A DNA stretch of 38,221 bases from a virus. A model generated the notes under the pieces. It was not told where the DNA came from. It worked only from the letters and a program-made list of their open reading frames with translations, and ran no database searches. The translations under genes and the position numbers were made by a program. The stretch's first letter is position 1. The number at the start of each line of letters is the position of its first letter. Of this stretch, positions 7,364 to 21,208 are shown one piece after another. The DNA lies in the IMG/VR virus record IMGVR_UViG_3300000233_000004, positions 1 through 38,221 of that record. One strand, given 5' to 3'.

Positions 7364-7930
7364 ATGAAAACAGCAATCAACACACAACCGTCTATTGGAA
7401 TGCTTTACTATGGTAACGAGCCAATTGGAAAGCCCGACACATTCCGCAATATCGGAGCGTTAGAACGCGAATTGATTGCTAATGGATTTGACAAAAAATT
7501 AATACATAAACATTATTTCAATGGGAGCTATAAAATTAATATTCATAATTTTGGTAATAATAGCCATAATGGTAATAATGCGCCGCTCGATACGCAACAT
7601 ACGAAGATTGCTACGGAACGAGAAAGACATTTACCTGAAACACCGACCAATGAGATGAGCGTAAAGCAGTACATTCTTACTGATTTTCGCGACCCTACTT
7701 GGCTCAACAATTACATAGCCTCAATGGGCGAAGAGGTGTTTTGGACGTATAAGCGAAAACTTTACCTAATGCTTTACAGCCTCGAAGTGGGGCAAAGCAT
7801 AGAGGTTAAAAAATGGGTAAAGCCTGAAAATCTGGACTTGTTTGTGAAAATTGCCTGCTGCTTTGTACAGGAGAGCCAATGCAACTACCAATTTAACAAC
7901 GAATTTACAATCATAACACGCACACTGTAG
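7364..7930 (+). CDS. Hypothetical early protein
   Basis: A 188-residue protein with no family I recognise. Residues 1-60 (PSIGMLYYGNEPIGKPDTFR) look folded, a middle low-complexity stretch (NNSHNGNNAP, about 64-74) acts as a linker, and residues about 95-188 form a helical domain with WLNNYIASMGEEVFWTYKRK. It follows the zinc-ribbon ORF by five bases in the early operon upstream of the primase. A replication or host-takeover role is only suggested by position. Confidence 0.55.
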   Translation: MKTAINTQPSIGMLYYGNEPIGKPDTFRNIGALERELIANGFDKKLIHKHYFNGSYKINIHNFGNNSHNGNNAPLDTQHTKIATERERHLPETPTNEMSVKQYILTDFRDPTWLNNYIASMGEEVFWTYKRKLYLMLYSLEVGQSIEVKKWVKPENLDLFVKIACCFVQESQCNYQFNNEFTIITRTL

Positions 7931-18301: not shown

Positions 18302-18895
18302 ATGGCAAAGGAAGATTTGACAATTTATGACAAAATAGAAAAATGTCTTTTTGAGGATAAAGAAAAAGCTGCTTCGATGTTGACACAAACTGAATTGGCA
18401 GTAAAGGAGAGAATTATGCTTTGTGTAAGTAAAAAACTTTCAGAACCAATGATTTCAGATAAATCATTAGTTAATTTTCTTACTTCAGGTGGCAATGGGA
18501 CTATAGCTTGCATTTCAAGCTCTCAGGCTTATCGCGATGTGGCAGCACTCACTAAAATAGTAGGCAATGTTCAGCTCGCTTCTAAGAATTGGTACAGGTA
18601 TATGATCGTTGAGGGTGCAAAGGAAGGCTATGAAATTGCAAAAACTGCAAAGGATTCAAAAGGCATTGCAGCTTGTTTAGATAAAATAGGTAAGTACACA
18701 AGGGCAGACAAAGATGACAACGATTTCGATTTTAGTCAAATGATTCCGCCAAACATGGAAGTTACCGACGATGTTACAGTTTTGGATGGAATCGAACCTA
18801 TCGAAGATTTAGAAACAGTACGCAATGAGTTCCGTAGCTTATTCAAAAAAGATTTAATGAAACGTTCAGTTATTGTCGAAGTTAATAAACCATGA
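18302..18895 (+). CDS. Terminase small subunit
   Basis: A 197-residue protein. TELAVKERIMLCVSKKLSEP followed by SDKSLVNFLTSGGNG and ISSSQAYRDVAALTKIVGNV, QLASKNWYRYMIVEGAKEGY is the pattern of small terminase subunits in Bacteroidota phages: an HTH-like N-terminus that recognises phage DNA, then an oligomerisation region, then an acidic tail contacting the large subunit. It overlaps the large-subunit gene by four bases (ATGA). Confidence 0.75.
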   Translation: MAKEDLTIYDKIEKCLFEDKEKAASMLTQTELAVKERIMLCVSKKLSEPMISDKSLVNFLTSGGNGTIACISSSQAYRDVAALTKIVGNVQLASKNWYRYMIVEGAKEGYEIAKTAKDSKGIAACLDKIGKYTRADKDDNDFDFSQMIPPNMEVTDDVTVLDGIEPIEDLETVRNEFRSLFKKDLMKRSVIVEVNKP

Positions 18896-20598
18896 ATTTA
18901 GCCACAGATAAACTTCATAAATTCGAAGAGGCTGCAAAACGGTTCTTTAATAAAGCGCAGCGCGATGCCATGTTAATATCGGCGCACGACGAATACATCG
19001 TGGCAAGTCGTGGAACTGGTAAATCCGAAGGTATTGACGCTCGTTTTATTCTCCGAAATATTTGGACGATGCCCGGTTCCACCGGCGCTCTTATTTCTCC
19101 CACTTATGCCAAAGCATGGGGTAATACCTTACCGGCTATCTGTCACGCTCTTTCAAGCTGGGGTTATGTGGAAGGTGTTCACTATTTTGTTGGTCGCCGA
19201 GCTCCTGCAGATAAAAACTTTAAGTTGCCAAAACGTATGCCTTTGCGCGATGCATGGAGTAATTGCTTTCACTTTTGGAACGGTACGATTATGGTGGTGC
19301 TCTCGTTCAATCAGGGAATGTCAGCTAACTCTATGTCCCTCGATTGGATTATTGGACCAGAAGCAAAGTTTTTATCTTACGACAAAATTAAATCAGAGGT
19401 CAATCCCGCTAATCGTGGCAATCGCCAATACTTCGGCGATTGTCCATGGCATCATTCCGTTTTGTACTCCACCGATATGCCGACCTCTAAAATGGGCAAA
19501 TGGATATTGGAAAAGCAAAAAGAGATGGACACGAAGCATATCAATTTTATACGTACGCTTTACAAAGAATTGATACGGTTCAAAATGCAGCCTGAGCAAA
19601 ACGAATACTCAAAGCGCATGATTTCGGAGCTTACAAGAGATTTAGCATTGGCACGCAAACATCAACGTCCTGTTAAACCACAACAGGGTAAAGATTATGA
19701 ATATACGGTGTATTATGCGGAGTATGATATTTTTGATAACCTCGAAGTGGTTGGTAAAGATTTTATATGGCAAATGTACCGCGATAGTCCAGCGTTGATT
19801 TGGCGGACTGCCTTCCTGAATGAGCGATTGTTTCGTGTGCCTAATGGTTTTTATTCCGCTTTGCACGATGACCATTTCTATATGCCAACAGATGTTTCTA
19901 AAAATATGAACGGTGGTCCAGATTGGCGTAAGCTATCAGGTAATGGTTGTATTTCCGATGGCGATTTGACTATGGGTATGCCGCTATATATAGCCTGTGA
20001 TAGTAATGCCGCCATCTCCACGCTTTGTGTTGCACAACCGGATAAGATTACTAATGAAATACGAACCCTAAAATCATTCTATATTAAAACACCAGGCAAG
20101 CTTCAGGACGTGGTTAAAATGTTCTGTGAATATTATTTAGGGAAGTTAAATAAAGAAGTAATTTTCTATTACGACCATACATTCACGTGGACTACCGGTA
20201 ATAACAACGACAGTTATAGAGATACCATTATTTCTGTATTAGAAAAAGCACGCTACAAAGTTACACCTGTGTACATAGGTCAATCACCTGGTCACGACTG
20301 GAAGCATTTACAAATAGATAAAGCATTAAAGGGCGACACGGAATATCTATATCCGAAATTCAACCTAATGAATAATGAGTTCCTGAAGATAGCAATGGAA
20401 CAAACAGGTGTACGTCAAGGAAAGAACGGATTCGAGAAAGATAAAACACCTGAACACTTAGACGATACTCCAGACAATCCGGACGAACACAAAACCCACG
20501 TTACCGATGCATGGGACACTCTCTATATAGGCTGTAACTTCTACTACCACGAGCCTAATCAAGGCTATTATGGAGCTGACTTTATTGGTCAGGATTAA
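18892..20598 (+). CDS. Terminase large subunit
   Basis: A 568-residue packaging motor. The N-terminal ATPase shows an adenine-binding/Walker A region VASRGTGKSEG (37-47), LISPTYAKAWGNT and a Walker B-like MSLDWIIGPEAKF (148-160). The C-terminal RNase H-like nuclease shows acidic residues in YIACDSN (Asp370), VIFYYDHT (Asp428) and HVTDAWDTL near the end. It cuts concatemeric DNA and pumps it into the procapsid through the portal. It is the last gene of the late A operon; the portal gene is 2.6 kb away, which is unusual. Confidence 0.85.
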   Translation: MNLATDKLHKFEEAAKRFFNKAQRDAMLISAHDEYIVASRGTGKSEGIDARFILRNIWTMPGSTGALISPTYAKAWGNTLPAICHALSSWGYVEGVHYFVGRRAPADKNFKLPKRMPLRDAWSNCFHFWNGTIMVVLSFNQGMSANSMSLDWIIGPEAKFLSYDKIKSEVNPANRGNRQYFGDCPWHHSVLYSTDMPTSKMGKWILEKQKEMDTKHINFIRTLYKELIRFKMQPEQNEYSKRMISELTRDLALARKHQRPVKPQQGKDYEYTVYYAEYDIFDNLEVVGKDFIWQMYRDSPALIWRTAFLNERLFRVPNGFYSALHDDHFYMPTDVSKNMNGGPDWRKLSGNGCISDGDLTMGMPLYIACDSNAAISTLCVAQPDKITNEIRTLKSFYIKTPGKLQDVVKMFCEYYLGKLNKEVIFYYDHTFTWTTGNNNDSYRDTIISVLEKARYKVTPVYIGQSPGHDWKHLQIDKALKGDTEYLYPKFNLMNNEFLKIAMEQTGVRQGKNGFEKDKTPEHLDDTPDNPDEHKTHVTDAWDTLYIGCNFYYHEPNQGYYGADFIGQD

Positions 20599-20611
20599 TA
20601 CAAACAATACC

Positions 20612-20695
20612 ATATAATTTGGGAGTTCCCCTTCGGGTCGGGCTTTCCGTTCTTGTATACCTGAATACAGGTATACGCCACTGCAATCCCTAACT
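20612..20695 (+). repeat. Structured repeat element, copy 1
   Basis: It starts with the prefix ATATAATTTGGGAGTT and goes on to CCCCTTCGGGTCGGGCT, a CCC/GGG mini-hairpin, then a GTATACCTG/CAGGTATAC hairpin (20655-20676) and ends ATCCCTAACTC. GAGTT near the start can pair with AACTC at the end. The GGGTCGGGCT...ATCCCTAA frame resembles a repeat I believe is common in Bacteroidota genomes, whose nature I cannot name. Confidence 0.5.
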
Positions 20696-20756
20696 CAAAA
20701 AGCAAGCCCCTGTATTAACACATTGCAAGAGGAAGAGCAACTGCCAATATAAGATA

Positions 20757-20904
20757 ATATAATTTGGGGCTTCCCCTGCGGGTCGGGCTACTTGCACGGC
20801 ATCCGATGTGTAAAGCTATACTAAATAGTCAACGCTTTAACCCATCCCATCTATTTGCACATCCTTACACATCGGCTGACAGAGAGTGCAAGTATCCCTA
20901 AGCT
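20757..20904 (+). repeat. Structured repeat element, copy 2
   Basis: Same prefix (ATATAATTTGGGGCTT, then CCCCTGCGGGTCGGGCT) with a longer branched interior: a 13-bp stem 20785-20797/20886-20898 with one mismatch, an 11-bp stem CCGATGTGTAA (20803-20813)/TTACACATCGG (20865-20875) and an AAATAG/CTATTT stem. The closing GCTT pairs with AAGC (20900-20903), where copy 1 uses GAGTT/AACTC, so the closing stem differs in sequence but keeps pairing. Confidence 0.55.
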
Positions 20905-20946
20905 AGCGTAAAGAGAATGCCGAAATACGTCATTCACTTTACGCTA
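20904..20946. repeat. 16-bp hairpin or cruciform
   Basis: TAGCGTAAAGAGAATG pairs with CATTCACTTTACGCTA with one mismatch around an 11-base loop CCGAAATACGT. A second hairpin (20967-20991, TGTTCGGT/ACCGAACA) has the similar loop CGAAATACA. Confidence 0.55.
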
Positions 20947-21012: not shown

Positions 21013-21113
21013 ACGTACATGCGTACGATAGTTTATAAGGGGCGATGTCCCAATGTAATGTAATATAATCCTAATCGGTCGTACGCACGCGTACGATGCG
21101 TTTATAGGAGGCG
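21013..21113. repeat. Two CGTACG dyads in a repeated unit
   Basis: GCGTACGATAGTTTATAAGG (from 21021) and GCGTACGATGCGTTTATAGG (from 21089) begin a repeated unit that ends in GGGCG or AGGCG. Each is preceded by another CGTAC, forming inverted pairs; the second is TCGTACGC-AC-GCGTACGA. They match the core of the 12.1-12.3 kb array. Confidence 0.5.
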
Positions 21114-21208
21114 TGTTTGTTAATCCTATTAACGTTTGGCATATAACGTGTTTTAAAAAGTTGCGACCGCTACATCCATCGAGGGCGTTGCGTGGTCTTT
21201 CGACGAAT

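Follow-up and report, generated by a model that had tools for sequence, protein, structure and literature searches.

Integron attC sites are recognised by their DNA fold, their arms being variable and their sequence poorly conserved, and the element described in the present study may be recognised in a similar way; to our knowledge, however, the element has no cassettes and no attC core pattern, and its junction is different. REP and REPIN sequences (RAYT, TnpA-REP) resemble it in being short, intergenic and folded into hairpins, with many copies in both orientations and lineage-specific families, but the element forms a three-way junction rather than one hairpin, lacks the GTAG tag and is not associated with a Y1/RAYT gene. 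The CGTC-tagged REPs of Bacteroidetes and other phyla are palindromic dispersed repeats without a dedicated transposase, in which stems of 8-9 bp carry loops of 4-5 nt and are marked by a CGTC tag (PMC3733652). The element is likewise a dispersed palindromic repeat without a dedicated transposase, and differs from these in its three arms and its variable closing stem P1. Frpo promoters have been described in plasmid leading regions (PMC11541004), and some plasmid copies of the element resemble Frpo/ssi sites as folded DNA that adjoins anti-defence genes, possibly in leading regions; in the element, by contrast, no promoter boxes were identified, and its copies are mostly chromosomal. Finally, Rfam RF01705 (Flavo-1), listed as "Gene; sRNA" from Bacteroidetes with no known function, has the same base and inner bulged stem in the long hairpin P3, and is matched by one of the two copies examined here (copy 1) and by three IMG/VR contigs. 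The Rfam model covers the P3 arm alone, on the opposite strand, whereas the element also includes P1 and a small hairpin P2, occurs in several phyla and is without RNA-like wobble.

We conclude that these sequences probably represent a dispersed, REP-like miniature DNA element with a three-way junction fold, likely moved by a trans-acting enzyme. As far as the literature searched shows, the Flavo-1 part was known, and the full anatomy, the range across phyla, plasmids and phages, the finding that substitutions follow a DNA-like pattern and the rejection of RAYT as partner are new; the bare 10-mer GGGTCGGGCT was found only in seemingly unrelated papers.

Anatomy of the two phage copies and covariation of the fold

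The window, that is the whole stretch of 38,221 nucleotides analysed (IMG/VR record IMGVR_UViG_3300000233_000004), is a 38.2-kb viral record with phage genes, in which the two repeats lie between a gene taken as the phage large terminase subunit (terL) from its genome context and a small HTH gene on the opposite strand (Table 1). A sequence-only reading of this DNA had reported a prefix of ~33 bases common to both repeats, a shared ATCCCTAA and closing stems of different sequence (GAGTT/AACTC and GCTT/AAGC), all of which are present, the prefixes being 91% identical. Its assignment of a single hairpin to copy 1 and of a different, branched set of stems to copy 2 is replaced by a common three-arm fold evident from the homologues. 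One anatomy fits both copies, comprising GG, the 5-bp closing stem P1, the small hairpin P2 and the long hairpin P3, joined at a three-way junction with near-constant joints (N/TC/T). The full plan reads TTT-GG, P1 (5 bp), one free base, P2, joint TC, P3, joint T and the P1 return arm. At the base of P3 are GGG, a C.T mismatch, a T-A pair and a freely covarying pair, followed by the variable long hairpin (pattern GGGCTN...NATCCC). P2 is CCC-TKC-GGG in the window copies and is located within the 33-nt prefix, the main difference between the copies being the length and content of P3.

Table 1. Window positions of the two repeats, their parts and the upstream gene
Feature	Positions	Strand	Remark
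Upstream gene, putative phage large terminase subunit	18892..20598	+	context only; no Pfam match
Copy 1, whole	20618-20696		
Copy 1 33-nt prefix	20612-20644		
Copy 1 5' TTTGG, leads into element	20618..20622	+	TTT 73-85%, GG ~90% in 190 elements
Copy 1 P1 5' arm GAGTT	20623..20627	+	pairs with AACTC at 20692-20696; P1 covaries in homologues
Copy 1 P2 hairpin CCC-TTC-GGG	20629..20637	+	other perfect hairpins replace P2 in homologues
Copy 1 P2-P3 joint TC	20638..20639	+	TC in joint of most P2 variants
Copy 1 P3 arm, base GGG.CTT...AA.TCCC	20640..20690	+	fold and covariance model
Copy 1 inner 9-bp hairpin of P3, GTATACCTG/CAGGTATAC	20655-20663 / 20668-20676	+	
Copy 1 ATCCCTAA	20686-20693		
Copy 1 joint T (P3-P1), then P1 3' arm AACTC	20691..20696	+	sequence
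Copy 1 match to Rfam RF01705 Flavo-1	20632..20699	-	35.1 bits, E 5e-6 to 6e-6, gathering score 42
Copy 2, whole	20763-20904		
Copy 2 33-nt prefix	20757-20789		
Copy 2 5' TTTGG	20763..20767	+	sequence
Copy 2 P1 5' arm GGCTT	20768..20772	+	GCTT (20769-20772) pairs with AAGC at 20900-20903; outermost G.T with 20904
Copy 2 P2 hairpin CCC-TGC-GGG	20774..20782	+	sequence, fold
Copy 2 P2-P3 joint TC	20783..20784	+	sequence
Copy 2 P3 arm, GGG/CCC base and inner stem	20785..20898	+	repeats, fold
Copy 2 P3 stem ACTTGCAC/GTGCAAGT	20790-20797 / 20886-20893	+	
Copy 2 P3 stem CCGATGTGTAA/TTACACATCGG	20803-20813 / 20865-20875	+	
Copy 2 ATCCCTAA	20894-20901		
Copy 2 joint T (P3-P1), then P1 3' arm AAGC(T)	20899..20904	+	sequence

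Further repeats were observed beyond the element, a 19-nt inverted repeat with 89% complementarity directly after copy 2 (20904-20946; TAGCGTAAAGAGAATGCCG / CGTCATTCACTTTACGCTA), and two CGTACG-rich repeats in inverted setting at 21018-21097 (CATGCGTACGAT, CACGCGTACGAT), where related phages have a GCGCGCGGGCGATGCGTT-like sequence.

Both copies folded better than dinucleotide-shuffled sequence in most settings, as RNA (z -1.9 on the plus and -2.8 on the minus strand for copy 1; -2.6 and -5.0 for copy 2) and as DNA (-3.0/-2.4 and -3.6/-5.0, respectively), most clearly for the minus strand of copy 2. A covariance model built from other elements and copy 1 scored copy 1, a training sequence, at 70.5 bits (E 5e-19), and copy 2, which was outside the training set, at 25.8 bits (E 8e-6), with the alignment of copy 2 ending at 20851 because its P3 is longer.

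The fold is demonstrated by covariation. A diverse set of 38 elements, picked by exact pattern so that its constant columns mean little, had 52 two-sided and no one-sided changes at four freely varying inner pairs. When the model was used to collect 107 distinct elements, pairing was kept in 98.4% of their cells, and two-sided changes affected 12 of 13 pairs (178 cells) against eight one-sided cells, although the alignment was fitted to the model and the copies are related rather than independent, so that these counts overstate significance. None of 500 shuffles reached the scores, and moving the partner by 1-3 columns gave at most 20 two-sided cells, compared with 178. The proposal in the sequence-only reading that pairing is kept while sequence changes is thereby supported. 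A lack of further homologues with compensatory changes, which that reading had named as refuting, was not observed, such homologues being recovered in large numbers.

Distribution, dispersal and plasmid copies

A pattern scan over 84,980 genomes returned at least 119 stretches. Most of the matches listed are from Bacteroidota, but they also include Aureimonas and Selenomonas (two each) and one MAG each of Anaerovibrio and Planctomycetota; the GGGTCGGGCT...ATCCCTAA frame, suspected earlier to recur in Bacteroidota, does so and also extends beyond them. About seven IMG/VR pattern matches appeared to be coding coincidences and were without the 3' half. Genome searches with a covariance model (R1) gave matches in 29 of 198 Bacteroidota genomes, leaving the majority sampled without a match. 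In the class of Selenomonas (Negativicutes), 3 of 121 genomes had matches, and in that of Aureimonas (alphaproteobacteria) 10 of 142 did, several of the latter weak. Carrier genomes had from one to at least 150 copies, including 68 in F. lotistagni and at least 150 in one MAG, and the element is also found on phages and on plasmids of Moraxella, Acinetobacter and Bacteroidales. Copies are dispersed, intergenic and present in both orientations, as are REP sequences.

The surroundings of these copies differ. Twenty copies fetched from one genome had in common the element and short edges (left TTATTTTTT, right GCTTCGCC.TTCGAAC or similar), with unrelated outer flanks. An identical 88-nt element occupies two loci in Saccharicrinis (L269, L271), and plasmid pMOV1 carries two near-identical copies with differing flanks. 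With regard to DDE-type MITEs, which have terminal inverted repeats and target-site duplications, P1 forms a 5-bp inverted repeat internal to the shared edges, and no target-site duplication was seen by eye at the Saccharicrinis loci or among the 20 copies of one genome.

For the mobile DNA element that we favour, we infer the following mechanism. A single strand would fold into P1 (5 bp), the short hairpin P2 and the long hairpin P3, with joints N/TC/T and a 5' TTTGG, and it would be this DNA fold, rather than an RNA fold, that is under selection or templated renewal. Recognition of this folded strand, perhaps where replication or transfer leaves a gap, would most likely fall to a nuclease or transposase that is structure-specific and provided in trans, and the element would be copied to new intergenic T-rich sites. 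Single-stranded DNA would thus be the active form, with the trans-acting enzyme moving the element.

The main rival likens the element to the single-strand DNA signals Frpo/ssi. It would serve as a folded promoter or priming site while plasmid DNA passes into a recipient in single-stranded form, and the chromosomal copies would be secondary. Several plasmid contexts, in which copies adjoin genes for anti-restriction or of the leading region and share the same orientation, are consistent with such a role: besides the Moraxella copies, an Acinetobacter indicus copy lies between an antirestriction gene and ardA, a Phocaeicola copy precedes a gene with an ArdC domain by ~0.6 kb, and a Selenomonas copy is upstream of a putative radC-like gene on a mob-type contig (predicted ORFs). 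A query with the A. indicus element recovered relatives on 257 plasmids, mostly of Acinetobacter, of which 244 were typed conjugative, and the relative on pAb-G7-2 is upstream of T4CP and mobF genes; the Phocaeicola query recovered relatives on 93 plasmids, mostly of Bacteroidales. The Bacteroides plasmid copies examined, in contrast, adjoin recombinase or LuxR genes, no -10/-35 pattern was seen, and chromosomes carry up to at least 150 copies per genome without orientation bias to genes or forks, and we regard this role as unlikely.

Plasmid copies also varied in form. A Moraxella catarrhalis plasmid has a shortened copy (L042, ~7860-7920) from which most of P2 and P3 between the ends is lost. 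Acinetobacter plasmids have two copies ~4-5 kb apart (L399, 4275 and 9015; L304, 468 and 4011) that are near-identical within a plasmid. Between the plasmids of A. indicus and A. baumannii the likeness is only ~70%, which suggests that the copies evolve in concert.

DNA or RNA as the paired form

RNA helices tolerate G-U on their own strand. Mismatches read on the plus strand of the 107 elements comprised eight G.T and eight A.C among 1361 cells, and isolated inner-helix mismatches gave the same counts (G.T 8, A.C 8), where an A.C on the plus strand is a G.T on the minus strand. As a control, 30 tRNA genes from the same loci had 47 G.T and no A.C among 637 cells. Orientation relative to flanking genes looks random (++ 26, +- 22, -+ 15, -- 25). 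Based on the equal rarity of G.T and A.C, the contrast with tRNA and the seemingly random gene orientation, we think that the paired form is DNA and not RNA, a view that draws on evolutionary patterns in sequence.

This bears on the relation to Flavo-1 and on the possibility that the element is a structured RNA, namely the Flavo-1 RNA, a small RNA or a cis-regulator. Copy 1 aligns end to end with the Flavo-1 model (E 5e-6), indicating homology over the modelled arm, with a minus-strand score below the gathering score (Table 1); copy 2 has no match to this model, and three IMG/VR contigs with the same frame (L010, L028, L030) pass the cut-off. The Rfam listing as sRNA, the match of copy 1, the strong covariation and the good RNA fold of the copy 2 minus strand would all suit an RNA, but neither strand tolerates wobble, orientation to genes looks random, and P2 and the P1 5' arm are left out of the Rfam model. 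Flavo-1 matches in F. psychrophilum have been reported as indistinctly sense or antisense to transcribed regions, with many outside them (PMC9723704), remarks that fit a non-RNA reading and count against the RNA alternative, which we judge quite improbable. A cis-regulatory RNA or terminator was rejected on the seemingly random orientation to genes. The frame that the sequence-only reading could not name is therefore nameable in part, overlapping Flavo-1 on the opposite strand in the P3 arm only, and of the RNA, transposition or packaging roles it had offered, mobile DNA is favoured, RNA disfavoured and packaging unlikely.

Two other motifs were considered. A GGG-CCC-GGG triplex motif was rejected, as P2 variants without G/C runs retain the fold, and a published triplex repeat differs in sequence from the element (PMC4666352). 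The Bacteroidota -7 promoter box (TAnnTTTG) does not account for the 5' flank, whose profile, ATWWTTTGGG, is out of register.

Scarcity of wobble on both strands offers a simple general test to distinguish DNA-level from RNA-level covariation that could be used for other orphan families. An orphan Rfam "sRNA" may be filed as the wrong molecule, being part of a larger, folded-DNA-like signal of several phyla. If so, efforts to find what it does as RNA are misdirected, and phages, conjugative plasmids and chromosomes would share a DNA enzyme, recognising the fold, that is still to be discovered.

Orthologous sites, arm turnover and the search for a mobilising enzyme

Flavobacterium species have elements at two orthologous intergenic sites, one following a putative aminotransferase-like gene and the other a putative UbiA-like gene. 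The position of the element is kept at these sites while its inner hairpin or P2 is swapped for unrelated hairpins, and a few species lack the element. P2 replacements there include TCCCGATAGCTATCGGGA, CCCGCCGCGGCGGG, TTCGCC-A6-GGCGAA and a 20-bp hairpin, and ~30 further P2 variants were found beyond them. Saccharicrinis and Chitinophaga-type MAGs, in turn, have near-identical inner parts with differing P1 stems, nearly all of them paired. In three Flavobacterium species (L284, L287, L289) the palindrome TCCCGATAGCTATCGGGA takes the place of P2 at one site, and near copies are present elsewhere (L343, L345); possibly it is an independent repeat with hairpin loops as its insertion sites.

A more specific proposal, which we advance tentatively as a possibility, is that the element defines a new class of mobile DNA, characterised by its three-way-junction fold and not by sequence and moved by a non-Y1 enzyme, in which both sides of a stem are renewed jointly, through templated copying as the element moves. 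Such co-renewal would account for paired changes almost without one-sided intermediates, as at the P1 inner pair among the 107 elements (TA 57, GC 47, AT 3, no mismatches).

Persistence at orthologous sites across species could reflect function rather than parasitism. The corresponding alternative, a domesticated BIME-like structural site (supercoiling, nucleoid protein, termination) that benefits the host and is not mobile now, is in keeping with the intergenic location slightly nearer to gene 3' ends (median 88 vs 148 nt) and with the intact fold at orthologous sites in ~10 Flavobacterium species; given that phages, plasmids and several phyla have only 1-3 copies and that most sampled Bacteroidota are without the element, we consider it very improbable.

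Returning to the REP-like mobile element, no associated transposase family or mobilising enzyme was found when Y1 genes were checked for presence in carrier genomes and for neighbouring elements; such a family was what the sequence-only reading had suggested looking for. Y1_Tnp was absent from 7 of 20 carrier genomes, including F. lotistagni and the MAG with at least 150 copies, and no element was located within ~1.5 kb of 30 Y1 genes, which together exclude RAYT/Y1 as a general partner. Atypical structures have been reported adjoining Bacteroidetes Y1 subclass 2.6 genes (PMC6006769); the structures at the 30 Y1 loci examined are not this element. The GTAG tag at the hairpin foot was absent from the flank profile, the foot being TTTGG before P1. 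Over four genomes, orientation relative to the replication fork showed no bias (31 of 59 concordant), and a lagging-strand trend that a single Flavobacterium chromosome had suggested (13 of 16) thus disappeared. The missing mobiliser, target-site duplication and replication bias count against the explanation that we favour.

We consider a packaging role in phages unlikely, since the element is mostly chromosomal and has no copy in the fetched stretches of 22 phage contigs with related terminases (66-88% identity). A separate 15-nt motif, AGGGCG(T/G/C)TGCGTGGT, occurs at 21182-21196 of the window, 584 nt after the terL stop. Each of the 11 related phage contigs that were checked has it 90-199 nt beyond this stop, with inverted orientation in four (L227-L229, L236). 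It is possibly a packaging or regulatory site, and its greater distance from terL in the window is expected if the repeats were added.
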